From contig CAIUHP010000038.1 in the NCBI GenBank assembly GCA_903899015.1, forward strand, positions 1 through 64,000: a stretch of 64,000 nt of DNA, read 5' to 3'. The DNA comes from an uncultured Armatimonadota bacterium (lineage in GTDB: Bacteria; Armatimonadota; Fimbriimonadia; Fimbriimonadales; Fimbriimonadaceae). The notes under the pieces are model-generated. The model ran no database searches and was not told the origin of the DNA. It saw only the letters and a program-made list of their open reading frames with translations. The translations under genes were made by a program, and so were the position numbers. How positions within the stretch are numbered: position 1 is the stretch's first letter; each line of letters begins with the position of its first letter. Shown one piece after another: positions 3,694 through 62,786 of this stretch.

Positions 3694-5145
3694 CTACGCG
3701 ATTGACGGTTTGATTGTGCCAGATGGCAACGCTTGTTCTACACAATAAGCGATCTGCAGCAATTTTTCGTCATCCAGAGGTGCTCCCATTAACTGTAATC
3801 CGACTGGAAGTCCTTCTGCAAATCCACAATTCAACGAAATTCCAGGCATTCCTCCTAAATTGGCAGGAATCGTGCAGAAATCAAGCAACTTTAGGGCGAG
3901 GGGATCTTTCTTGAGCTCACCAAGTTTGAAGGCTGGGATGGGACTGGTGGGTGAAAGTACAACGTCGAAGGATTCGTAAACTTTCTGAAACTCCTGTTGC
4001 ATCATCGCTCGAACCTGCTGAGCTTTCAAATAGAAGGCATCGTAGTAGCCCGCTGAAAGCGCATACGTTCCGATCATGATCCGGGTTTTAACTTCGTGGC
4101 CAAATCCTTCCGATCGGGTCTTTTCAACCATGCCAATATGGCCCTGACCATCTTTTCGTACTCCGTATCGGATTCCGTCGAATCGGGCGAGGTTGCTGCT
4201 TGCTTCAGCCGGTGCAATGATGTAATACGTCGTCACTCCAAGTTCGATCGAAGGTATCGAAACCTCTTGGAACTCGACGCCTTCCTTTTGAAGCACGTTG
4301 ATAGCATTTTGGATCTGCTCCAGAACTTCTGGGTGAGTAGCGGAACCGAAGAGTTCTTTCGGTAACGCGACTCGCAATCCTTTTAACGAGCCAGACTTCA
4401 GGTTTTGCGCAGATATCGGCCCGAGATCGAGCGATGTTCCATCTAGCGGATCCTTGCCGGTGATTGCTTCGGTCAGCAGTGCGGTGTCCTCAACCGTCTT
4501 AGCAAAGGGACCGATTTGATCGAGGCTAGAGCCAAACGCGATAAGCCCGTACCTTGAGCATCGACCATAGCTCGGCTTGAATCCCACCACGCCGCATAGA
4601 GCGGCTGGTTGGCGAATTGAGCCTCCTGTATCGGATCCAAGAGCCAACGGGGCGAGCTCGGCGGCTACGGCGGCCGCCGAGCCTCCCGAGCTTCCCCCCG
4701 GAGATCGTCCTAAATCCCACGGATTGCGTGTTACTTGAAAGGCTGAATTCTCGGTGGACGTTCCCATCGCAAATTCATCGAGATTGGTTTTTCCAATTAA
4801 CGTCATCCCAGATTCTTTCAACCGAGTCACGACTGTTGCGTCAAAAGGCGGGATGTAGCCTTCAAGGATCTTGGATGCACAAGTAGTCTCAATCCCTTCG
4901 GTGGACATGTTGTCCTTCACGGCGATCGGAACACCGGTCAGTGCTTTACCTTCACCGCGATCGAGCATCGATTGGGCAAGTTTGGCGCTCTCGAGAACCT
5001 TGTCAGGCTCGACCTTAAGGAAACTGCCAATCTTGGAATCGAGGATGTGAATCCGTTGAAGGAACGCTTCCGCAACTTCGACGCACGATGCCTCACGGGA
5101 CGCGACTAGGCGCGCAATTTCGGAAGCGGTCAGATCAGTTAGCAA
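3694..5145 (-). CDS. gatA: Asp-tRNA(Asn)/Glu-tRNA(Gln) amidotransferase subunit A
   Basis: The glutaminase subunit of GatCAB, which releases ammonia from glutamine so that misacylated Glu-tRNA(Gln) or Asp-tRNA(Asn) can be amidated by GatB. The 483 residues carry the amidase signature with the Ser-cisSer-Lys triad: K77 (in VAVKDN), S152 (in PGGSSGGS) and S176 (in DTGGSIRQP). The length is normal for GatA. It starts at TTG 5145, 7 bp after the gatC stop, and is followed 6 bp later by the membrane-protein gene. gatB is not in this window. Identification is secure. Confidence 0.97.
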   Translation of the reverse strand: MLTDLTASEIARLVASREASCVEVAEAFLQRIHILDSKIGSFLKVEPDKVLESAKLAQSMLDRGEGKALTGVPIAVKDNMSTEGIETTCASKILEGYIPPFDATVVTRLKESGMTLIGKTNLDEFAMGTSTENSAFQVTRNPWDLGRSPGGSSGGSAAAVAAELAPLALGSDTGGSIRQPAALCGVVGFKPSYGRCSRYGLIAFGSSLDQIGPFAKTVEDTALLTEAITGKDPLDGTSLDLGPISAQNLKSGSLKGLRVALPKELFGSATHPEVLEQIQNAINVLQKEGVEFQEVSIPSIELGVTTYYIIAPAEASSNLARFDGIRYGVRKDGQGHIGMVEKTRSEGFGHEVKTRIMIGTYALSAGYYDAFYLKAQQVRAMMQQEFQKVYESFDVVLSPTSPIPAFKLGELKKDPLALKLLDFCTIPANLGGMPGISLNCGFAEGLPVGLQLMGAPLDDEKLLQIAYCVEQALPSGTIKPSIA

Positions 5146-5152
5146 CTACTCG

Positions 5153-5443
5153 TTAAACCTCGATGATCATCGGTACGACAAATAAACCGGCTTTCGAAAG
5201 CGGTGCACTTGCCAGAACCTGATGCCGTGCTAAGGTTCGCCCGGGCAGGTCTTCGGACCAAACATTCTGGATGGCAACGGCGTGCGATTTTGGCTCGATG
5301 CCTGATCCTTCGATTACTTGGATATCCTCAAAGTGTCCAAGTAGCGCGTTTAATTCGCCCTGGAAAGAAAGGATTTCAGTCTCGTCAAGTGCCAGACGCG
5401 CCAACCGCGCGACGTGCCGAACCTCATCGAGTGAGATCGACAT
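5153..5443 (-). CDS. gatC: Asp-tRNA(Asn)/Glu-tRNA(Gln) amidotransferase subunit C
   Basis: The 96-residue GatC subunit, which wraps around the GatA-GatB interface and stabilises the complex. The N-terminal pattern VRHVARLARLALDETE, the following ELNALLGHFEDI helix, and the C-terminal segment ending in LFVVPMIIEV are typical of the family. It is the first gene of the leftward gatC-gatA operon. Its ATG at 5443 is only 46 bp from the divergent thioredoxin-fold gene, so the two promoters must lie in or overlap this short spacer. Confidence 0.95.
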   Translation of the reverse strand: MSISLDEVRHVARLARLALDETEILSFQGELNALLGHFEDIQVIEGSGIEPKSHAVAIQNVWSEDLPGRTLARHQVLASAPLSKAGLFVVPMIIEV

Positions 5444-5489
5444 GAAGAAAGTTTAGCACAGCGATCATAATTCCCACCGAAGGCCCTAA

Positions 5490-7559
5490 ATGTTTAAGCC
5501 CAGCTATATCGTGGTTTCGTGTGTGCTGGTCGTCTTGGCCATTCTCGCTTTTGCGCGTCAATTGTTGGTCGGATTGATCCCTCCTGCTGCTTCCAACAAG
5601 CTGGAAGGCTCCCATCAAGCCTTTCTTGCCGCTGCCGGTCACTTTCCAATTAATTGGCATACCGTTGAAGACAGCGGAATGAAAAGTGCGAAATTATCCG
5701 AAAAGCCGATTTTATTAGTGGTCGGAATTTTTGGCAATCGAATTTCGCGGGATATGGATCGGGCCATGTTTGAGGATCCTGATACCGCTCAATTTGTCTC
5801 GCAGAATTTTTATTGCGTTCGAGTAGATGGCTACGAGCATCCGGAATGGCTGAACTCAATTCTTCCCATTACCCGGATGAAAATGAAACTTTTCCCGGGA
5901 TACCAAGCCTGGGTGTTGGATTCAAGCGGACATGTCCTTAGTTTTATTGGCCACTGGCAAGATTCTCCGACAATCGACAATCAGGAAATCTTCAATGAGC
6001 TGGTCCAGTCCCGCCGACGATTTGACGAGTTAAAACAAGGCGGTACGGGCATTCAAACCGGAGTCGATCAGCAAAGGGTTGATCTCGATTTACTGGGAAG
6101 CCAATCGGGCTCGGCCGTACCCAGCTTTACGGCGTACACCGCGTCGCTTTCAAGACAAGGTGACCTTCAGAATGGTGGATTCCCACGCGACAAGATCCAG
6201 AGCCTGTTTCCAAATACATGGCGATTCCTTTCGCTCACGGGTAACACCAAACTCCTAAAGACCACGATGGACCCGGTTCTCTTTAGTCCACTCTTGGACT
6301 TGCAGGATGGCGGATTCTTCCGATTGAGCAATACCGTCGATTTCAGCCACATTGAGTTTGCCAAGCCATCCCGGACCAACGCAGAGATGATGCTAATGTT
6401 GGCAATCGAAGGGCGAATTGAGGGAGATCAATTCTACGAGGAAATCGCAACCTCTACATTCGATTGGCTATACAACGAAACACTCCACAATCCGATGATT
6501 CCTGCGTGCCAGGAAGACGACGAAAACGCTCAGGGGCGTAGTCCGAGATTAAGCTTTCCGCAATGGAAATTGAGGGATTACCTCAACGATCAAGATCAAG
6601 CTTGGGCGGCAGATCAATTAAATCTTGATCCTCGCACTAATAACCAAATGGTGCCATTCATTCGTTCAAAAACGATCCTCTTGGACCCTGAAAAGCGTTA
6701 CGAGCGAATTTTAGAGCAGCTAAAAACTTCTTCGCATCTAAGACCTCGATTCAGTGACCCAGGATATTTGGATGTCAACGGTCACACTTTGGCTCGGATG
6801 CTGGAAGTTGCCCGCATGTGGGGTGCACCAGAACGCATTCTACGCCTCGAACCAAGCATTGAGAAATTGGCGCGATTTAAGTCAGGTCAAGACTTCATTC
6901 ATCGAATCGATAATGTAAACGGTCCGACGGGTTATCTGGGAGATTACTTGGCTTACTCGGACGTGATGCTTCAGATGTACCTTGCTACCGGTCGCATGGA
7001 TTGTTTTCAAGAGGGACTACGAGTCTTGAATCGCACGTTGCAGGTATTCAAGGGCGATCGAATGGGGCAACTTAATCTCAGCTCTTCAAGTGTAAGGATG
7101 GGTGGGATGGATACGTTGAGTGTGCCTGAAATTGCAGACGATCTCGGAGAGTCATGTACCGCCCAAGAAATTCGACTGTTATTGGCATTCGGCCGCCTAC
7201 TCGGAGATACCGCCGCCGGAAAGGAGCTTCTGCAACTCGCTCAAGAAGCTACCTACCTGTTCGCCGATATAGCAGCTGTCGGTGGGCCCGACGCCTCGGG
7301 TTACTTTTGCGCCGCATCTGAGGTAGCAGACGATCAATATGCGATTGCCGTAGGTCCACGAGCGCTCGACTTGGCAAGCATTCTTTACCACCGGATTCCA
7401 ACCCGGTTTATTGCGCCGGCTGTGGGGGGAATCAGAAGGGATCTTCAAGGGCGAAATTCCGGTATCTATCTTGTCGGCAAGACTGTTGAAGGACCCTTTT
7501 CGATCGAAGAAGCAGCTCAGAGATTACCAACGAGTTTAGTTGGTCGCCGTAATCGGTGA
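5490..7559 (+). CDS. Membrane-anchored thioredoxin-fold protein, SPATA20/YyaL-like, no CxxC
   Basis: A 689-residue protein with an N-terminal hydrophobic segment (about residues 6-30) acting as signal anchor. A domain at roughly 52-165 resembles the thioredoxin-like N-terminal domain of the DUF255 (SPATA20/YyaL) family: KPILLVVGIFGN, then DMDRAMFEDPD, then VRVDGYEHPEW. At the place where relatives carry a CHWC-type motif it has GIFGNRISRDM, so no redox pair remains. The rest is alpha-helical with GGFPRDK and GYLGDYLAY motifs reminiscent of the toroid domain of that family. A short extracytoplasmic role is likely, but activity is unknown. The tRNA-Ser promoter overlaps its stop codon. Confidence 0.6.
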   Translation: MFKPSYIVVSCVLVVLAILAFARQLLVGLIPPAASNKLEGSHQAFLAAAGHFPINWHTVEDSGMKSAKLSEKPILLVVGIFGNRISRDMDRAMFEDPDTAQFVSQNFYCVRVDGYEHPEWLNSILPITRMKMKLFPGYQAWVLDSSGHVLSFIGHWQDSPTIDNQEIFNELVQSRRRFDELKQGGTGIQTGVDQQRVDLDLLGSQSGSAVPSFTAYTASLSRQGDLQNGGFPRDKIQSLFPNTWRFLSLTGNTKLLKTTMDPVLFSPLLDLQDGGFFRLSNTVDFSHIEFAKPSRTNAEMMLMLAIEGRIEGDQFYEEIATSTFDWLYNETLHNPMIPACQEDDENAQGRSPRLSFPQWKLRDYLNDQDQAWAADQLNLDPRTNNQMVPFIRSKTILLDPEKRYERILEQLKTSSHLRPRFSDPGYLDVNGHTLARMLEVARMWGAPERILRLEPSIEKLARFKSGQDFIHRIDNVNGPTGYLGDYLAYSDVMLQMYLATGRMDCFQEGLRVLNRTLQVFKGDRMGQLNLSSSSVRMGGMDTLSVPEIADDLGESCTAQEIRLLLAFGRLLGDTAAGKELLQLAQEATYLFADIAAVGGPDASGYFCAASEVADDQYAIAVGPRALDLASILYHRIPTRFIAPAVGGIRRDLQGRNSGIYLVGKTVEGPFSIEEAAQRLPTSLVGRRNR

Positions 7560-7848: not shown

Positions 7849-8439
7849 ATGAAGGGAGTCCCCGAAAGTGGAGCAGACTTAGAAATTCACGAGGCCATTC
7901 TTTTGGCGAACTCGATGGATGCCAAGTCAATGCTTTGGTTTCGCCTTGGCTCACTGGCGGCTTCGCTTGTCATCATGGGATTAGTGGTCTATTTCATGAT
8001 CATACGGAGAGAAGTGTCTCCGCTGACTGAGATGGTCGCCCCCGCGACAACTTTCCTTGAGAAAGGCGTTCACGATAACAAGGATCTACCGACCTTATCC
8101 ACGCAAATGCATTTCGCGGTCATTTGGCCCGATCTGCGCCAATTGGGTGTCAAGCTATCTCGCTCGACTGCATCTCGATTTGGTGGGGTTCCCGCAGCAG
8201 TAATGGAATGCCAGTACGGCAAGTCCGTACTTCTGCTTTACCGATTTAACAAACCTTCCAATCTGTTCAATGACATGAAAAAGTCAAGAGGGAAGTCCAA
8301 TCTGTTCTTTTACGTGTCTGACCAAGCCGTTTCAGTTGTTGTGTGGAAAGACAAGAAAGTGGGTTACTACGGACTAGCGGCAAAAGCCACCGAAAAGGAT
8401 CTACTTACGCTCGCCGACAAAATGGTCCCGCAGTTGTAG
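7849..8439 (+). CDS. Single-TM anti-sigma-like protein
   Basis: A 196-residue protein with a short cytoplasmic N-terminus, one membrane segment (about residues 30-50, SLAASLVIMGLVVYFMI) and an extracytoplasmic domain of about 140 residues. The C-terminal pattern KVGYYGLAAKATEKDLLTLAD is like that of many anti-sigma or zf-HC2-type membrane regulators, but no zinc-binding HxxxCxxC and no ECF sigma gene are present next to it. ATG 7849 was chosen because sequence upstream of it (open to TTG 7795) looks unlike protein; neither start has a good Shine-Dalgarno sequence. Family assignment is tentative. Confidence 0.5.
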   Translation: MKGVPESGADLEIHEAILLANSMDAKSMLWFRLGSLAASLVIMGLVVYFMIIRREVSPLTEMVAPATTFLEKGVHDNKDLPTLSTQMHFAVIWPDLRQLGVKLSRSTASRFGGVPAAVMECQYGKSVLLLYRFNKPSNLFNDMKKSRGKSNLFFYVSDQAVSVVVWKDKKVGYYGLAAKATEKDLLTLADKMVPQL

Positions 8440-8520
8440 AATTGAAAGTAGGCTCTCTCTCAACTTCGCGACCTCGATCTTAATCCGAAGTGGATGTGGC
8501 CCTGAGAGGAGAATAGAAAC

Positions 8521-8949
8521 ATGGACGAAACATCTCCGCTAATTTCGGCTAGGACAGAAGCTTTAGGAAAAGCGTATGCCGCACTGAATCGAAACGATGT
8601 GCCTGGATTTGTCGCCATGTTCGACCCACAGGTCGAACGTATAGAAGACTTTGGGGAAATAAAGACAATTCATGGCTTAGACGCAGTGAGGGCACACGTC
8701 TTGGAGGGCCGAAGAAAATGGGCGGAAGGCAGCTGCAAGCCAGAAAGGTTTGTCGCTTCCGGTGATCGGATCATTGTGAGAGTCAAGGTAAGGGTTAGGT
8801 TGAAAACGGAGGAATACTGGCGCGAAGGGCTCATCGGGGATGTCTTCACATTCCATAGCGGCAAGGTAACTCAGTTCTGTTCATTCATTGACGAGCGTCG
8901 AGCAATCGAATGGGTTGATGTTTCGGATTCAAATGGCCCGACGAGCTAA
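8521..8949 (+). CDS. SnoaL-like/NTF2-fold protein
   Basis: A 142-residue cone-shaped NTF2-like domain. It begins with a helix (ALGKAYAALNRNDVPGFVAMF), followed by a strand-rich region with the typical TIHGLDAVRAHV and GDVFTFHSGKVTQF motifs that form the ligand pocket. Members act as isomerases, hydrolases or ligand binders, and nothing here fixes a substrate. A clear Shine-Dalgarno sequence (GAGGAG) lies about 10 nt before ATG 8521. Transcribed alone or with the preceding membrane protein (81-bp gap). Confidence 0.7.
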   Translation: MDETSPLISARTEALGKAYAALNRNDVPGFVAMFDPQVERIEDFGEIKTIHGLDAVRAHVLEGRRKWAEGSCKPERFVASGDRIIVRVKVRVRLKTEEYWREGLIGDVFTFHSGKVTQFCSFIDERRAIEWVDVSDSNGPTS

Positions 8950-12550: not shown

Positions 12551-14503
12551 CTATCGCCCAATCGGTTTGAGATTTGCTCGAATCGCGTCGGTGTAAATCC
12601 CCATCCTTGATTTTGGAATGGGAAGGACCTTCGTGAAGTCAGTGTTCGTTTTGGTTTCGACATTCCCTTCCATTTGAACCGTTTTCCTGTAGGGTGCTTC
12701 CATCTGTTGATCGACTTTGCCCGACCGAATCAGCAGATTTCGAATAATACGGTTCCCTCTTGGGGCCATCGGATCCTCGTTCAAAATATTGGCGAGTGCA
12801 GGATAGCTCGATCTCCAGATTGGGGACTGATAAGGTACGGCATTGAGGTTGTTCAACATCGTCTGCTTACCTTTTGCAGCCCAGCCTAATCCGCGAGCAT
12901 CGCATTGCATTGCCAGATCGCAATCGATAAGTACATTGCGTTCAATTACATTTTCTCGACCGCCACCGATCAGAAATCCCCAATGGCAGCGTTCGATGAG
13001 ATTACCAACCATCTTGATTCCTGAGCCTTGATCATCAACATAGATCGCCGGCTCCCATTTTCTCTGACCGACATTGTCGTGAAAGTAGTTGTATTGAATC
13101 GCCGTGCCTCGCGCAGTCCAGTCTCGGCCACAGTAAACAACACCTCCGTCACCGGTTAAGGAAATAGTGTTAAAGAATTCGTTGAATTCAATGACGTGAT
13201 TGTTTCCCCCGTAAATAATCGCCGAGTGGGGCGCATCATGAATGGAGCAATGGGAAACGACATTCCCGACTCCCGCAATGATCACCGCAGGGCGATAAGT
13301 TTGGGATCGTCGCTGGTAATCGCCAATATCACAATTCGTTACGAACAGCTTCGCCGGCTCTAAATTCTTCCGGTCGCCTCCCGAAAGGGCGACTCCTCCT
13401 TCACCCATGTGAGCAATATTGCAGCTCATGAGCCCCGAACGATGTCCCCGTTCAAACACGGCTGCGCGAGCACCAAGGGAGTAGAATCGGCATCCTTCGA
13501 ATCGCGCATTTTCGCAATCGCGAACCAATGCGCCGTCGCCACGCGAAAGACATAAGTCGAGGCCCGAAATGGTGATGTTTGCGGACTTTGTGATCGAGAT
13601 CAGTGGCTTTGCTAGCGTGGAAATAAAAAGTTGAGGGGCGTCACTTCGGTCAGTGCGGTTAATAAAAAAGAGCTTGCTACGGGTTCGATCGATCACGTAT
13701 TCGCCTGGCTGATCTAGTTCTTCAATCAGGTTTTCAGCATAGAACGGTGTGTTTGCGGCGACTCCGTAAACGTGAGGATGGGCGAGAGTAATGGCTCCCG
13801 TTTCGGCATTGATAGCGGAAGCATGGATACTTTCATCCGCCCAATCAAAGAACCAGTAGCCGTACAGCCACGGATCTTCTGCCTGTGCCCACTTTTTGGC
13901 TCGGTCTCCACCGTCGAACATGGGCTTTCTCTTTGGTTTATCCTGATCGTTCTCGCCGTTACCCGGATCGATGACCTTGCCAACCTTGGCATATCCATAA
14001 TTGGGCCATCGAGCAAGGGTGCCAGGTCTTGAAAAGAAGAACAACTCCTCGGGCGATGCAGATGGAGAATGGGGAAACCCCCGGTCTTGGATGGGGTCTA
14101 GGTGCTGAATCCCCAAAGCTTTGAGGTCTACTTCCTTCACCACCCGGCGAGCAAGGGGATCAATAATCCGATTCAGAACGGCTGGGTCTTTGCAATCCTG
14201 GATAGCGGCGACCGGGATATCGATACCGCCGACGAGTAACGGATGTGCTCCAGGGGCAGCCAAGAGAGTTAATCCTGAATCTCGGCCATCAAGCTCGAAA
14301 CTGTCACGAAGTCGATACCGTCCGTCTCGAAGCACGATGCGATGGATTTGATTGCGTCGAGCAATGTCGCGAGCCTCTTCGAGCGATGCCACCGGTCGAG
14401 CTGGCGTCCCAGGATTGGTATCCAATCCTTGAGGCGAAACAACCACATCAGTTTGTGCGAGAGGAGCAAAAAGCACGCCGAATGCAATCGGAAGCAGCAT
14501 CAA
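12551..14503 (-). CDS. Secreted right-handed beta-helix protein, GH141-like
   Basis: A 650-residue exported protein with a signal peptide (about 1-18). The start of the mature chain, VVSPQGLDTNPGTPARPVASLEEARD, is the hallmark of secreted parallel beta-helix proteins with a DUF1565-like N-terminus. Later motifs such as ARWPNYGYAKVGK, YGYWFFDWADE and FYAENLIEELDQPGEY resemble GH141 glycoside hydrolases acting on plant cell-wall polysaccharides. The central part (about 300-540) consists of beta-helix coils with repeated N-V-I-E-R/F-N patterns. Enzymatic role is inferred from this likeness only; a structural or adhesive role is possible. Confidence 0.75.
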   Translation of the reverse strand: MMLLPIAFGVLFAPLAQTDVVVSPQGLDTNPGTPARPVASLEEARDIARRNQIHRIVLRDGRYRLRDSFELDGRDSGLTLLAAPGAHPLLVGGIDIPVAAIQDCKDPAVLNRIIDPLARRVVKEVDLKALGIQHLDPIQDRGFPHSPSASPEELFFFSRPGTLARWPNYGYAKVGKVIDPGNGENDQDKPKRKPMFDGGDRAKKWAQAEDPWLYGYWFFDWADESIHASAINAETGAITLAHPHVYGVAANTPFYAENLIEELDQPGEYVIDRTRSKLFFINRTDRSDAPQLFISTLAKPLISITKSANITISGLDLCLSRGDGALVRDCENARFEGCRFYSLGARAAVFERGHRSGLMSCNIAHMGEGGVALSGGDRKNLEPAKLFVTNCDIGDYQRRSQTYRPAVIIAGVGNVVSHCSIHDAPHSAIIYGGNNHVIEFNEFFNTISLTGDGGVVYCGRDWTARGTAIQYNYFHDNVGQRKWEPAIYVDDQGSGIKMVGNLIERCHWGFLIGGGRENVIERNVLIDCDLAMQCDARGLGWAAKGKQTMLNNLNAVPYQSPIWRSSYPALANILNEDPMAPRGNRIIRNLLIRSGKVDQQMEAPYRKTVQMEGNVETKTNTDFTKVLPIPKSRMGIYTDAIRANLKPIGR

Positions 14504-14854: not shown

Positions 14855-15412
14855 ATGGGCGTTTCAGACGTCTTACTCGATACTCCAATGAAGTGGAAGG
14901 CGGCGTCCCACCCGTTGCGTCTGGGAATCTTGCGACTCCTGGCGGACGGTGAGATGACCAACGAAGAACTCGCGCGTCAACTCGAAGTCGCATCCGGCAA
15001 ACTTTACTTTCACACAAAGAAGCTTCTTGAAGCTGGCCTGATTGAAGCGGCTCCAACGCGTATCAAGGGCTCACTGATCGAAAAGCCCTACCGTCGAGTT
15101 TCTGATGGCTTTATCGTTCCGATGGTTGAGGACGGGACAGCCCCGCCACTACTGCATCTCTTGGTGAATGCAGCGCAACTCTATCAGTCGACCTGGGCCG
15201 AGGCGACCAACAAGCACTTTATCCAATTCGGATATCACGTCATGTACTTTCAAACCGCTGAAAAAGAAGCGGAGTATTACGAACGCATCAACCAACTGGC
15301 CAGCGATTTCATCGCGACTGCAGTCCCTGCATCGCACCCCGATGCCCGAATCGTCTCGATGGGCCTGCTCGCTCATCGATGTCCGAATCGATCGACTTCC
15401 GAAAATTCCTGA
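14855..15412 (+). CDS. ArsR-like winged-helix transcriptional regulator
   Basis: A 185-residue regulator with an N-terminal winged helix-turn-helix (about residues 10-75): HPLRLGILRLLADGE, then MTNEELARQLEVASGKLYFHTKKLLEAGLIEA. This matches the ArsR/HTH_20 pattern. No metal-binding cysteine pair is visible in the DNA-binding domain. The C-terminal half is helical and probably senses a ligand or mediates dimerisation. The gene is 21 bp upstream of a run of secreted proteins with which it may be co-transcribed, and a strong inverted repeat at 14804-14847 covers its ribosome-binding site, so self-control is likely. Function of the C-terminal domain is unknown. Confidence 0.8.
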   Translation: MGVSDVLLDTPMKWKAASHPLRLGILRLLADGEMTNEELARQLEVASGKLYFHTKKLLEAGLIEAAPTRIKGSLIEKPYRRVSDGFIVPMVEDGTAPPLLHLLVNAAQLYQSTWAEATNKHFIQFGYHVMYFQTAEKEAEYYERINQLASDFIATAVPASHPDARIVSMGLLAHRCPNRSTSENS

Positions 15413-15433
15413 TTTTCAAAAGAGGCACAATTC

Positions 15434-16528
15434 ATGAAAACACTACAGATCATCTCAATTCTCAGTCTCAGCATTCTATCCGTTACGGCGATGCCACAAC
15501 AGAAGAAGGCGGCGAAAAAGAAGCCGTCGGTAAACCAAACCAAAGGCCGTGAGCAACAACAGGGAGGGCCTGGGGTGTTTGGGACGACTTACTCAATCCG
15601 AGGCTACTTCAATAACTTCAATATTAGCCTTGATAAAGCCTGGTATGACGTCGCTGTTCCAGCTGGGTATGCGCTACTGCCACAAAGAACTGAAAAGTTT
15701 CTATACACGAATTGGAGCATCAAGAACACTGCTGCCGGTTCACAGGGCATGCCGGGAGATGGGATTCCAGTGAGCCTGGTCTTTGCCGACGGTAACACCA
15801 AGGATGACTATATTCGCCTGTATCGACGGGTGGACTCGCAGCCTCTAACCTTGGATTTCAAGCCAGGGCAAGGGGTGAATGACGTTGTCGGATTCCTCGT
15901 GATGCCTGCCGATGCGCGCGTCACAAAGATCATCTTGAACGTCGCACGCGCTCAGGTAGCAAGCGAGCAGGTCATTCGATATTTTGTGGTGGGTGGTGGA
16001 ACTGACACCAAGCCAGATCCGAAAAACGTCATTGCACCACTTTCTACAGCTTGGCGTGACACGACCGATGCTTCGGGAGCGAAGGCTCTTGAGACCACGA
16101 AGGCAGAGTTCGGACAGGAATATGCGATCTCGATGTTTGCGGCAACGGTTGAGAGCATTTCGTTTGCGCAGAAGTTTGGCGACACGACCGCGGCAGACGA
16201 CCAACGACTCGTCATCGCGACGCTCAAGATTCGAAACCCGCTCGGATCTAACATTAGTTTCGGCACGACAGGCATGCGAAGCGGAATGGAACTGCTGGTA
16301 GTCGATGGAGACGGCGAGACTGCCAACGTCAGTTCTCAATGGTTCAAAGCGACGCGCGAAGAACCGGTCGGCGATCACGAAATTAAGCCCGATGAAACTT
16401 ATCGCGTTCGGGTCGTATTCCCGATCCGTAAGTTTGACAAGCCGCTCAAGTCATTGACTCTCCGTGAAGATGAATACAAGTCTCGGGGGCTCAGTTTTGA
16501 CGGTGCAAAGCTCGGGAGTGGAAATTAG
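15434..16528 (+). CDS. Secreted protein with DUF4352-like domains
   Basis: A 364-residue exported protein of unknown function. It has a signal peptide (about 1-20) and a basic Lys/Gln-rich linker (QQKKAAKKKP), followed by two beta-rich domains. The second contains the pattern RLVIATLKIRNPLGSNISF with a closing RVRVVFPIRKFDKPLKSLTLRED strand pair. This resembles DUF4352/TRF2-like immunoglobulin folds found in bacterial lipoproteins and exported proteins. A GAGG ribosome-binding site precedes ATG 15434. The stop codon TAG shares its G with the GTG start of the next gene, so translation is probably coupled. The locus with regulator and tandem relatives looks like one operon. Confidence 0.65.
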   Translation: MKTLQIISILSLSILSVTAMPQQKKAAKKKPSVNQTKGREQQQGGPGVFGTTYSIRGYFNNFNISLDKAWYDVAVPAGYALLPQRTEKFLYTNWSIKNTAAGSQGMPGDGIPVSLVFADGNTKDDYIRLYRRVDSQPLTLDFKPGQGVNDVVGFLVMPADARVTKIILNVARAQVASEQVIRYFVVGGGTDTKPDPKNVIAPLSTAWRDTTDASGAKALETTKAEFGQEYAISMFAATVESISFAQKFGDTTAADDQRLVIATLKIRNPLGSNISFGTTGMRSGMELLVVDGDGETANVSSQWFKATREEPVGDHEIKPDETYRVRVVFPIRKFDKPLKSLTLREDEYKSRGLSFDGAKLGSGN

Positions 16529-17799
16529 TGCTGGCAACATTACTTGCCCTTTGCGCTTTCGGAATTCAGGATGTCAAGCCGGCTCCGGAGGCGCTGATGA
16601 CGGTAGACAACCGAAGTTTTACCGTCTACGACGTTAGTGGCGGCGATCCTTATGCTGACATCGTGAGTCAGGTAATTGGAGGCGCTGCCCCAAAACACGT
16701 TAATAGTATTAATTATTCTCCGGTACATCTGAGGCTGGATCGAGAAGGGTTTGCGGGCTTACGTTCGTGGATTACTGGCACCCTTGCATCGGGTTCAAAG
16801 ACCCAAGACGGAACAATCTCCTTTAACGGACGTGAACTCAGTTTCAAGGGAGCGTTGATTACATTGGTTACTTTTCCGTCATTTGCTCCCGGTGATTCGG
16901 GAATGATCGATCTGGAGTTTATCGCCGAGCAATATCGCTATGGAGTCTCTCGACAGGGCGCGGTAAGTGGAAAGCGTACACCGTTTACGAGCGCAACGAT
17001 GCAGATCGTGGGCCTCGGGAACCCGAGCATTGATTCAGTTACGTCGAAACCCACATTTGCTGCCGTGATAGCGGCAGACCAAATCGGAAGCTTTAGGGAA
17101 TCGACTAAGCATCCTGCAAAGGTGACCGTTAGCGATCTCACCGTCGAGCAAACCCGAAGTCAGCCTGGGGGCATCTCCGACTGGGTGAAACCATGGTTTA
17201 TCGATGGTCACCACTCGGAACAGGACGAGAAGACCAGCCGTATCACCTACTTTGTAGCGGGTAAGGCCGAATTTGCGATCGAGTTCGGGCATTGCGGCTT
17301 GAAGAATGTGACCGACATCCTGAATCCAACCGACAAGATCCTCGCCACACTCTATGCGGCTTCAATGACGATCGCTGCACCGGCAACCGGAGAGTCCGCA
17401 TCGAAATCAAATGCGAACTCAAACGATGCATTGCCGCCTACGGAAGACGGCACTTTTGGCAAGTTTTATCTCGACTCTAGCGATAAGAACGTCGCGGTAA
17501 ATGTAACGGGTGCAAGCTACGTCGGTGAACGTTATGCAACTGGGATTACTGCCCAAACGTCCAACATTTGGCTTCTGAATTCTAACGAGAAGTTCTTCGT
17601 CTTGACGGTGAAGGTGAAAAACCTCGGTACGGAAGAGTTTCAGGTCGGATATGACCACGTTCACTTCAACATTGAGGACGATACGGCAATCAAGGTCGAT
17701 GGAATCAAAAGTGCGTTTCGACTGAGTGATCGTCTCGATTACCACGCTCTGCTTGCGGGCGGTAAGTCAGTCGATCTTCAGTATTTAGTGGCGATGTAG
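16528..17799 (+). CDS. Secreted DUF4352-like protein, upstream part of a stop-interrupted gene
   Basis: 423 residues are encoded from GTG 16528, overlapping the previous stop by one base. It has a short signal peptide (about 1-12), a beta-rich region (about 20-280), a Ser/Asn-rich linker (ESASKSNANSNDA), and a DUF4352-like domain (about 312-423) with the motif KFFVLTVKVKNLGTEEFQVGYD. The frame meets TAG at 17797-17799 just before the last beta-strand of this domain. The missing strand (KLRVWV) and a whole second DUF4352-like domain continue in the same frame after the stop. As it stands the product would lack its final strand. The intact gene would be 603 residues long. Confidence 0.65.
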   Translation: MLATLLALCAFGIQDVKPAPEALMTVDNRSFTVYDVSGGDPYADIVSQVIGGAAPKHVNSINYSPVHLRLDREGFAGLRSWITGTLASGSKTQDGTISFNGRELSFKGALITLVTFPSFAPGDSGMIDLEFIAEQYRYGVSRQGAVSGKRTPFTSATMQIVGLGNPSIDSVTSKPTFAAVIAADQIGSFRESTKHPAKVTVSDLTVEQTRSQPGGISDWVKPWFIDGHHSEQDEKTSRITYFVAGKAEFAIEFGHCGLKNVTDILNPTDKILATLYAASMTIAAPATGESASKSNANSNDALPPTEDGTFGKFYLDSSDKNVAVNVTGASYVGERYATGITAQTSNIWLLNSNEKFFVLTVKVKNLGTEEFQVGYDHVHFNIEDDTAIKVDGIKSAFRLSDRLDYHALLAGGKSVDLQYLVAM

Positions 17800-18339
17800 A
17801 GCCTATCCAAGGCTTCAAAGCTTCGCGTATGGGTGGAAGATCCCGCGATTTCAACCGCTTACGACCTCGCTAAAAACAAGGTCGATCCACTACCTACTGC
17901 ATTGACGGATGCGTCTGGTTCGAAGATGTTCGAGACGGTCGATGCTTCGATAGGTGCCTGGTTCCCGACAGGCTATTTTGATGTTCAGGTGGAACGAATT
18001 GGCACGACTGCTGGCCCGATCATGGCGACTCCACCGGACGAAGGGAAGATCTACACGACCATCAGCTGCAAGATCCGAAACGCTAGCCGGGGAGAAGCGG
18101 CACTCAACTACGATACATTCCACTTCGTCGGCTATACCAAGGACGGCCAGGAATTTACTGGTGCCGATCCGGTTGATAAGGCCATGAAATCATCAGTACA
18201 CCGCACCTTTCAGCCGTCTGGGACTGATGGCTCCGAAAGTCAGGTTGTCTATTACTTTCAATTCCCGAAAGAGAAAAACCTAGCGTACGTGACATTCAGA
18301 GAAGCTACCGGACACTTGTTTAAAATCAAGCTTAACTAG
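17800..18339 (+). pseudogene. Downstream part of the stop-interrupted DUF4352-like gene
   Basis: In the same frame as the preceding gene, directly after its TAG, the sequence completes the interrupted domain (SKASKLRVWVEDP). It then encodes a further DUF4352-like domain with TTISCKIRNASRGEAALNYD and a final YYFQFPKEKNLAYVTF strand pair. Independent translation could begin at GTG 17833 (168 residues), but there is no Shine-Dalgarno sequence and no signal peptide, so a separate exported protein is unlikely. The simplest reading is one gene with a nonsense substitution; stop readthrough is the alternative. Confidence 0.6.
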
Positions 18340-18490: not shown

Positions 18491-19966
18491 ATGGGGCTAC
18501 GGTTTAATGCTGCTACGGTGATTGGATCGGGGCTTCTGATTGGAGGGATATTTTGGCAAGGTAGTGTGCCGACTGCGCATCTGAAGACACCAATGGATTT
18601 TGGTGCCGTTGGCGATGGACTAGTGGATGACACCGTCGCGGTCCAAAACGCGATAAATGCCACCCAAAACGGAGGGTCGCTTTACTTTCCCGGTGGCCAC
18701 AAATACCTTGTTCGAAGCCTTCACGCGACGGGTGAAGTTCACTGGCTTGGACCAGGAGGAAGTTGGCTGAATGATCGAGCGGCGGATGGTGCGGTCATCA
18801 TTCAGGGCAACAACGCTGCGGAAGACTTAGTGACTCTCACAAACGCCGCTTATTCAAACATTAGCGGTGTCGCCTTCGATGGCAATAAGCTTAATCAAGC
18901 AAAACCGCTCAACGGTATCCGCCTTATCAACTGTGAATTCACTCGGTTTGACAATATCTATGTGACCTCTTGTAGCGGACACGGCATCCTTCTCGAAAAC
19001 ATCAATACTGTCCAGACTTCAGACGAAATCGATCTTGTTGATTGCTACTCCGTCCTGAACGGATTAGATGGAGTTCACTATGATTTCAGTCTCCCAGGGG
19101 GAGTGTTTGCGCCCGGCGACTGTGAAATCATTGGTGGCCACTACGATTTTAATACCGGTGCGGGAATTTCACTCCACGTGTCTGCTTACACCTCGATAAA
19201 CGGGGCCAACGTATTATCCAATGGTGCGGCAGGCATCTCTGCGATCTATTGCACAGGACTTAACATCACTGGGAACATGGTACGCAACAATCGAGCACAA
19301 GGAATCGTGCTCGGAAATGGACCGTCTTTCACCCAATGCACCAATTGCTCGATATCGGGAAATCAAGTTCATCTGAACTCGCGTGAAGGAATCGGTAAGT
19401 ATTCCAATATTGACGTCGGTTTCGGCACAACGAACACACGGATTATCGGTAATTACTGCGGCGACGTGAACCCGAGCCCAACTTATCCCATTTCATCGGC
19501 GTATGGAATTTGGCTTCACGATGGAGCGAGACAAACCCTGGTGGTAGGTAACACGTGTCCTTCATCAGAGAACTTTAAGGGTGGATTTCGTGCCGAAGCA
19601 GACGCTACGTACGTTTCAACTACAAACACGGGAATCCCAGATTTCGATACCGAAACCGCCAAATTTGCCAACCAGAAAATTACAAGTAATGGTGCGAACT
19701 TGGGAACCATCCATGTAGGTTCTGCCAAGGATGTCTGGGTGGGTATCACGGGCGGGAAAGGTGGAGTGATCTATCTGCCACCAGCCGAATCTTTATCCAG
19801 TGGGTACTCGATGGTCATCAAAGATGAAGGTGGCAAAGCAACCCAGCATCCCATTTCGGTCGACGGAAACGGTACGACGATTGAAGGTTCTCTAGTGTCA
19901 AAAATCGAAACGAATTTTGGTAGCCTTCGCCTCCGGTTTGATGGGAAGGCTTGGTGGAAGTGGTAG
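18491..19966 (+). CDS. Exported pectate-lyase-superfamily beta-helix protein
   Basis: A 491-residue protein with an N-terminal signal or anchor segment (about 8-28). It then has the characteristic start of the Pectate_lyase_3 superfamily, MDFGAVGDGLVDDTVAVQNAIN with GGSLYFPGG. Beta-helix coils run from about residue 90 to 360 with repeated ISGN/ITGN turns. A C-terminal beta domain (about 385-491, SLRLRFDGKAWWKW at the end) resembles appendages of phage tail-spike-like proteins. Likely role: polysaccharide lyase, hydrolase or surface binding; no catalytic triad can be assigned. A GAAAGG ribosome-binding site is 3 nt before the ATG. Confidence 0.75.
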   Translation: MGLRFNAATVIGSGLLIGGIFWQGSVPTAHLKTPMDFGAVGDGLVDDTVAVQNAINATQNGGSLYFPGGHKYLVRSLHATGEVHWLGPGGSWLNDRAADGAVIIQGNNAAEDLVTLTNAAYSNISGVAFDGNKLNQAKPLNGIRLINCEFTRFDNIYVTSCSGHGILLENINTVQTSDEIDLVDCYSVLNGLDGVHYDFSLPGGVFAPGDCEIIGGHYDFNTGAGISLHVSAYTSINGANVLSNGAAGISAIYCTGLNITGNMVRNNRAQGIVLGNGPSFTQCTNCSISGNQVHLNSREGIGKYSNIDVGFGTTNTRIIGNYCGDVNPSPTYPISSAYGIWLHDGARQTLVVGNTCPSSENFKGGFRAEADATYVSTTNTGIPDFDTETAKFANQKITSNGANLGTIHVGSAKDVWVGITGGKGGVIYLPPAESLSSGYSMVIKDEGGKATQHPISVDGNGTTIEGSLVSKIETNFGSLRLRFDGKAWWKW

Positions 19967-60065: not shown

Positions 60066-62498
60066 CTAGTGCAGCACGGTCAGATAAGCGCTAGCCCCAG
60101 AACTTCCATCGGTCGCAAATACCAACGAAGTCAGGGTGGATTGAACTGGCTTCGTTGTGACGGAGAAATTCACCGATGAAGAGCCAGCGGGGACTAAGAC
60201 CGTTGTAGGTAGACCGACGATGCCCGGCGCTCCAGCGGTAAGTTTTACAAGCCAGCCGCCGACTGGCGCAGGGCCTGTCAATGTCACCGTTCCGGTCGCA
60301 CTGGTTCCTCCATTGACCGAAGTCGGCGCGACCGAAACGCTTGTAATTCCGTCGCCTAATACCGTCAGCGTTGTGGATTGGTACGAATTCCCATCCGACG
60401 CGTAAATTCCGGTGGTGTAGGTGTGGCTCGACTCCTTTCCAGAGATCGTGAAGGTCACACTGCTTGCTCCGGCAGGAACGGTGACCGTTCCGGGAAGGCT
60501 CACCGCTCCCGGGACCCCAGCAGATAGATTCACCTTCCATCCGCCAGTGGATGCAGGTAACAGGAGCGTAATCGTTCCAGTTGAAGTGCCGTTTCCTCCG
60601 ATTGTGGTCGGCGAAACAGAAAGTCCGGTGATAAGGTTGCCAACAACGCTAACCGTTGTTGACTTATAGGCAAGTGCGTCCGATGCATAAATCCCGATGG
60701 TCAAAGACCGAGATGTCGCCTTGGTGGTGATTGGAAATGTTACTGACGTTGCTCCTGAGGGGACAACGACGCTCGCGGGAACGGTTACCTCACTCGGAAC
60801 ACCGGACGACAGGTTGACCGTCCATCCATTTGCCGGGGCCGAGGTGTTCAGAGTAATCGTGCCGGTGGTATTCGCGCCGGCCGATATCGTCGTGGGACTC
60901 ACGGTTAAATTTGTAATTCCACAACTTCGAACGGTCAGGTTTGCACTGTGCCAAATGACAGAGTCGTGGGCGCTAATCAGATAGCTGTTAGTCGGCGTCG
61001 AAGTGAGGGAAGTGATCGTGAATGTTGCACTTGATGCTCCCGCCGGGATCGTAACGGTGGCAGGTACGGATACGAAATAGGGGCTTCCACTAATGAGGGT
61101 GACTGTCCAGCCGCCAGCTGGCGCAGGTCCTCCCAAAGTCACTGTTCCAGTTGAAGTAGAACCGGCTCCGATCGAAACCGGGTTTACCGTTACTGACTGA
61201 AGTGCAGTGGTCGCTACGGTTAGAGTTGCGGTCGACTGCGAACTATTTGAGGTAGCCGTTATGAGATCGTTGAATGGAATCGCCCACATTTGAGGAGATG
61301 AAATCGTAAATGTCGCGCTAGATGAGCCTTCAGGCACCGTTACCGATGTTGGCACCGTAACGTAGGTCGGATATTGATGACTCAAGTTAACAACCTGCCC
61401 TCCAGGTGAAGCATTCCAACTCAGAGTCACGGTCGCAGTGGAAGTTGTTACACCTCCTGTAATTGTAGAAGGGCTCAAGGACAGGCTGGATACTGTAGGC
61501 GTACCTGGCGTCCCAATCTCGTAGATCGTGCCGTACGTGGACGCAACATAAAGGCTGCTTCCCGAGCCGATTGCGCACGCAGAATTATAAGAGTCGGCAT
61601 TGGTTTGGCCAGTTGAGTTTGTCCAAACGAGCGTTCCCGATCCGTTGAAAGCGTAAACCAATCCGTTGCCAGTCGGTACGTAAATTGTGCCGTCAGCATC
61701 GACCGAACACGAAGAGTTATAGCGATCGTTGTTAGTTAAGCCAAGATTGTTTGACCAAAGCGATGAGCCATCGGTGCCGATTGCATACAAGGTCCCAAGT
61801 CGACCACAAGCGTACAAGACACCACCTGGTCCAACCGAAGCTGACGACGTAAAGGTGTCTCCATTGGTCCATGCCGCGGCATTGGTCCAAGAATGCGATC
61901 CGTTCGAATGGAAAGCATAAAGAGTTCCGCTAAGGGCAGCCAGGTAGAGAGTTCCGTCAGAACCAATCGTACAAGACGAGTTGAAGGCATCGGTTCCAGC
62001 GTAGTCGCTGTTAGCCCAGCTCAAGGTTCCATCTGAATTGACTGCGTAGAGGTAGCCCGCGTTTCCCGCAATATAAATCGTGCCATCTGACCCAATTGAG
62101 CATCCAGCCAAAAAGCTGTCGCTATTCAAGAATCCCGCGTTATTGGCCCATTTTAGAGTTCCATTGGGATTGAACGCATAAAGATTGCCCCAGTATCCAG
62201 GTTCGTAGATTGTGCCGTCAGAACCGACTGTGCAATTTGAGTTAAATGTGTCTCCACTCGTTGCCGCATCCGTGTTCATCCATTTCGAAGTTCCATCGGG
62301 ATTGATGGCATACAAATTGCCATTCGCACCGGGCTGGTAAATCGTGCCATCTGATCCAATGGTGCAGGAAGCATTGAAGCTCTCATTTGCAGAGCTTGAG
62401 AATGCTGCGCTATTGGTCCACTTGGTTGTGCCGTTTGGATTAAGGGCGTAGAGGTTGCCATTGCCGCCCGGAACGTAAATAGTTCCATCGGAAGCAAT
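60066..62498 (-). pseudogene. Main part of PQQ-like surface protein after in-frame TGA
   Basis: In the same frame as the N-terminal fragment, directly after its TGA, about 810 codons continue. They cover the rest of PQQ-like repeat 1 and repeats 2-8 (each about 40 residues, type CTIGSDGTIY...GNLYAxNPDGTxxWxN), followed by five repeats of about 95 residues (type LSVSPTTIGGNGTSTGTITL...VPAGASSVTFTI), ending at 60066. A TTG (62315) could start translation, but no signal peptide would be attached. Without the stop the protein would be a 900-residue secreted propeller with Ig-like modules. Function unknown. Confidence 0.65.
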
Positions 62499-62786
62499 TC
62501 AGCAGGAGTTGTAAAAGCTGTCGAAATTCGAACCACCAGCGCTGTTCGACCAGTAAGTTGCACCATTGGAGCCACTACCCGTTCCATTGCTGTTGTTGAA
62601 GTTGTTGGCTCCCGCCACGGGCCAGGGTGCCCCTACTTGGTAGGCAAAAGATCGATGCCCCGGCGTCCGGTTTACTCGAGATGGATTCGCAGATTGTCGT
62701 TTGTTCTGCACCCGGCCAGACGTTGACTGCCCCAGACAAAAAGGCGCGACAAGCAAGGCCAAGCAAATTATTCCAGCTATCTTCAA
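62499..62786 (-). CDS. N-terminal fragment of PQQ-like surface protein
   Basis: A 95-residue product. A signal peptide (about 1-19, ending CLGQS) is followed by a Ser/Asn-rich linker (NNFNNSNGTGSGSNG) and the beginning of PQQ-like repeat 1 (NFDSFYNSC). It ends at TGA 62499-62501. All other copies of the repeat have Thr, Ser or Ala at this place (FNASCTIGSDG, FNSNCTVGSDG), so the stop replaces a normal residue. As it stands it would be a tiny exported peptide. Confidence 0.6.
   Translation of the reverse strand: MKIAGIICLALLVAPFCLGQSTSGRVQNKRQSANPSRVNRTPGHRSFAYQVGAPWPVAGANNFNNSNGTGSGSNGATYWSNSAGGSNFDSFYNSC

Follow-up and report, generated by a model that had tools for sequence, protein, structure and literature searches.

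A premature TAG codon interrupts a rare gene with predicted tail-tube-like and DUF4352-like domains in an uncultured Armatimonadota bacterium

In-frame stops are reported to be widespread in bacteria and often short-lived, and the same survey further describes purifying selection on such stops as common and argues that many of them do not mark pseudogenes (PMC7918605). The nonsense-interrupted genes and recent pseudogenes surveyed there resemble the locus described below, which shares with them a single in-frame stop, an otherwise open frame and intact relatives. Two Pfam families bear on the encoded protein. Homologues of its N-terminal region match PF06841 (Phage_T4_gp19, a tail-tube protein), one of them in two stretches; however, the region itself gives no match, is fused to DUF4352 and has a hydrophobic N-terminus in front. 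The C-terminal half, read through the stop, lies above the cut-off of PF11611 (DUF4352, a domain of unknown function), from which it differs in containing two tandem copies, the first one cut by the stop.

The window, a stretch of 64,000 nucleotides from an uncultured Armatimonadota bacterium (4.94-Mb draft assembly, 119 contigs, 99.87% complete), contains on the plus strand a single reading frame (16528-18339) that is broken solely by a TAG at 17797-17799. The first part (16528..17799) is a 423-aa ORF starting at GTG 16528, which shares the final base of the stop codon of the upstream gene (a one-base overlap), and is predicted to comprise a hydrophobic N-terminus, two tail-tube (gp19)-like domains and most of DUF4352-like domain 1. 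The TAG falls in the putative loop preceding the last strand of this domain, in a non-homopolymer context, and amounts to a clean substitution with no frameshift. Past it the frame is open as far as TAG 18337-18339, and this remainder (17800..18339, plus strand) encodes the last strand of domain 1 and a second DUF4352-like domain. The first in-frame start after the stop, GTG 17833, follows a 33-base gap, sits within the final strand of domain 1 and opens an ORF of 168 aa; no Shine-Dalgarno-like stretch is present in the 20 bases preceding it. A promoter and terminator scan returned fewer sites than in shuffled sequences and is uninformative.

The segment 17800-18336 codes for protein in the frame of the first part, since its codon score (0.218 bits per codon) is in the middle of the distribution of 331 coding windows of equal length (mean 0.207, sd 0.055 bits per codon) and is reached by none of 1655 off-frame windows. 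Given the base composition of the window, 179 stop-free codons would occur by chance with a probability of 2.0e-4, and the rest of the interrupted frame is otherwise undamaged. The interruption of this frame by the TAG, which had been proposed from the DNA letters and their translations, is thus borne out by the ORF reading and by the codon score.

Homologues of the interrupted region are distant, the best being 20-30% identical; no close orthologue of the gene was found, and a protein search of genome contigs for close relatives returned nothing. A direct search located six distant places in five of 60 relatives, none of which has a stop. The family profile A1, built from eight sequences and run on 85 genomes of the same family, finds 58 places in 39 genomes, and only one of these matches, the window's own, holds an internal stop. 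The stop column is spanned by 45 of the 58 places (spanning being defined as reaching at least ten model positions beyond the column on both sides), namely the window and 44 others, where the stop occurs solely in the window row. Among 37 aligned segments of the loci retrieved, the residue at this column is most frequently proline (18), followed by tyrosine (7), histidine (4), phenylalanine (2), aspartate (2), glycine (1) and serine (1), while the remaining two, including the window's own truncated row, are gapped. As in nonsense-interrupted genes generally, the homologues are one protein across the site and the sequence past the stop is still coding. The proposal of a misplaced stop within a longer protein therefore stands, with all 44 of the other spanning homologues open there, and on the combined grounds of homology, frame and codon use the TAG is judged premature beyond reasonable doubt.

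The N-terminal region (16528..17433, plus strand) has gp19-like relatives, some of them stand-alone proteins and some fused. With its first 302 residues as query, relatives are found in two other genomes among the 291 of the phylum, G116 (E 6.3e-20) and G189 (E 9.9e-6), and a profile of three sequences extends the matches to five other genomes of the phylum. The G116 relative (L115:3739-4674) matches PF06841 in two stretches (E 2.3e-11, 44.1 bits, cut-off 28.2), and the G189 relative (L114) matches it exactly at the cut-off (E 1.9e-6, 28.2 bits). The window's own region has zero matches in Pfam, so its tail-tube label rests on these two relatives. A PF06841 search of the bacterium's own genome found no match anywhere, the controls likewise giving none, and is uninformative. 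Residues 1 to about 300 thus appear related, by way of the G116 and G189 proteins, to two tail-tube-like domains rather than to DUF4352.

Read through with X at the stop, the region 17434-18336 scores 31.1 bits against PF11611 (cut-off 25.9) in two stretches, while the two halves scanned separately reach 14.1 and 18.2 bits (E 0.059 and 0.0032) and remain under the cut-off; all eight aligned members match this family at E 0.1 or better. The original description as a DUF4352-like protein accordingly holds for the C-terminal half and fails for the first ~300 residues. A profile search of solved structures gave no match at E 0.1. A predicted structure of low confidence (mean pLDDT 43) places strands at residues 112-120 and 128-135, which flank the stop (residue 122), in weak agreement with the suggested position between the last two strands of the domain; another predicted structure reaches a pLDDT of only 30, and both models are of too low a quality for a comparison of folds. 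The intact gene directly upstream (15434..16528, plus strand, 364 aa) has two DUF4352-like domains and is paralogous to the C-terminal half of its interrupted neighbour.

The architecture of the whole gene is predicted to be two tail-tube-like domains followed by two DUF4352-like domains, a combination present in three of the 291 genomes of the phylum, the window's included. In G189 a single 653-aa protein (L114:1807-3768) runs unbroken from the N-terminal region through the two DUF4352-like domains, and G135 likewise carries the full architecture in a single uninterrupted protein of 635 aa (L122:482-2389), the gene immediately after it, of 355 aa, having two DUF4352 domains; relatives existing as one protein of about 600 residues, a check that had been asked for, are thereby found. 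Tail-tube-like relatives lacking the DUF4352 part occur in three further genomes of the phylum. G116 (L115:3736-4674 and 4703-5803) has a gene with two DUF4352 domains and then one for a 312-aa protein of the N-terminal type alone, which is the gene order of the window except that the DUF4352 tail is missing, while the proteins of G023 and G083 are likewise short (339 and 286 aa). This rare architecture in Armatimonadota, although a by-product of the analysis, is likely to be of greater use than the broken gene itself.

An ArsR/HTH_20-type regulator (14855..15412, plus strand) heads the block to which the interrupted gene belongs, and the block (14855-18339) consists of this ArsR-type regulator and the two DUF4352-type genes. 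The beta-glucosidase-like gene of the window shares 77% identity with one from a Fimbriimonas MAG, which places the bacterium near Fimbriimonas. In G013, a Fimbriimonas relative, the flanking genes (12551-14503 and 18491-19966) adjoin and the whole block is missing (L107). In G005 the upstream gene has an orthologue at a contig edge (81% over 264 aa, L106); the gene after it is unrelated, and a search of L106 at E 0.01 recovers neither the first nor the second part of the interrupted gene. This G005 orthologue is divided between the ends of two contigs, the starts of L106 (C64) and of L109 (C125), whose overlap falls inside the gene. Since the block is missing in G013, and the second gene is missing beside the upstream orthologue in G005, the block is lineage-specific, and it is therefore plausible that one of its genes should be lost.

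The best joint explanation, to which a probability of roughly 0.66 is given, is an ordinary nonsense-interrupted lineage-specific gene whose TAG is most likely a real and recent mutation. The ancestral state would be one gene of ~603 codons for a secreted protein with two tail-tube-like (gp19/Hcp-fold-related) domains and then two DUF4352-like beta-sandwich domains, in which a base substitution would have created the TAG, within the loop that precedes the final strand of the third domain. Translation would end at this TAG and yield a 423-residue protein with the third domain unfinished and the fourth missing, while the downstream frame, presumably lacking translation of its own, persists undecayed, which suggests a recent event. 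The block that holds the gene is lineage-specific and dispensable, and a second large secreted protein of the window is likewise cut, by a TGA. The base is probably real, the event probably recent, the function presumably reduced or lost and the product putatively secreted; the often short life of in-frame stops reported in PMC7918605 fits a recent mutation or polymorphism. It is unlikely that the TAG instead stems from a miscalled base, an assembly error or a minor variant in the consensus, and that the true gene is intact. A draft assembly in 119 contigs, the intact remainder of the frame with its coding-like codon use and the existence of intact homologues of the full architecture would all fit such an error, but the non-homopolymer context and the clean substitution in place of a frameshift argue against it, as does the second clean nonsense codon in the same 64 kb, since random errors would yield two such codons only at a high rate. 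A real mutation is favoured on the same grounds, namely the pair of clean nonsense substitutions within 64 kb and the missing homopolymer at 17797-17799. Somewhat less probable again is a useful truncation, in which the 423-aa product would keep both tail-tube-like domains and work without the DUF4352 tail; it would resemble the stand-alone G116 relative, which stands beside a gene with two DUF4352 domains in the order of the window, and the short forms of G023 and G083, but the G116 form stops after the tail-tube-like part rather than partway through a DUF4352 domain, and the frame past the stop of the window is undecayed.

Programmed or leaky readthrough, by which a short and a long form would be produced, is very unlikely, although the argument in PMC7918605 that many stops are not pseudogenes, together with the purifying selection on in-frame stops cited there, leaves some room for it. 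A short hairpin begins two bases past the TAG, but the RNA fold of the 104 bases from the stop has a z of only -1.88, with 7 of 200 shuffles equally good, and the stop is absent from all of the other spanning homologues, so that neither a conserved stop nor a strong RNA structure is found. The tRNA survey (44 places by Rfam RF00005, all passed through ARAGORN, the first pass having scored 150 of 280 candidates) identified no CTA anticodon at any of the 44 places and hence no suppressor tRNA, the release factor 1 gene prfA is present (474.8 bits), and TAG is the normal terminator of both the interrupted gene and its upstream neighbour; the CTA tRNA, RF1 loss or TAG disuse expected of stop-codon recoding are thus not seen. 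Nothing found supports recoding or programmed readthrough. Slighter still is the chance that the TAG acts as a tolerated or regulated switch, giving mostly the 423-aa secreted tail-tube-like form and a small fraction of a 603-aa readthrough form in which the pair of DUF4352 domains is complete; if true, these two products would parallel the stand-alone and fused versions that are separate genes in other Armatimonadota. Two separate genes, the second one starting at GTG 17833, are disfavoured most strongly and are highly improbable: the 168-aa ORF exists, but it has no ribosome-binding-like sequence before it, its start lies within a domain strand, and homologues split at the TAG site, which were looked for as evidence against a single gene, were not found. 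The original prediction had also considered two genes unlikely and is upheld in this. Under the preferred reading of a nonsense-interrupted gene, gene callers will give a truncated protein and a spurious ORF of 168 aa.

The second interrupted gene of the window (60066-62786, minus strand) encodes a putative secreted protein with beta-propeller repeats (PF25292-like) and is cut after 95 codons by TGA 62499-62501, past which the same frame runs on for 810 codons, and where the TGA substitutes one residue of an otherwise regular repeat. A genus-wide search for this beta-propeller family (159 matches in total) contains at least 11 rows with stops among the matches listed, some of which may run across neighbouring genes. 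Because these rows come from five genomes (G000, G004, G005, G008 and G013), interrupted large secreted proteins seem common in the genus. A codon-bias search comparing 864 kb of the bacterium's own genome with 800 kb of G008 failed to pick up either case of the window and gives no usable rate. A survey of same-frame ORF pairs in the same two genomes lists 42 and 38 pairs, which by eye are mostly ordinary neighbours, and the TGA 62499-62501 case is likewise absent from its list. The survey also brought out, at C43:248384, a decayed remnant resembling an OprB-type porin; it lies in L137 (about 8100-8700, minus strand, corresponding to G000:C43 about 248100-248700), and its frame is broken by a TAA and by upstream stops.
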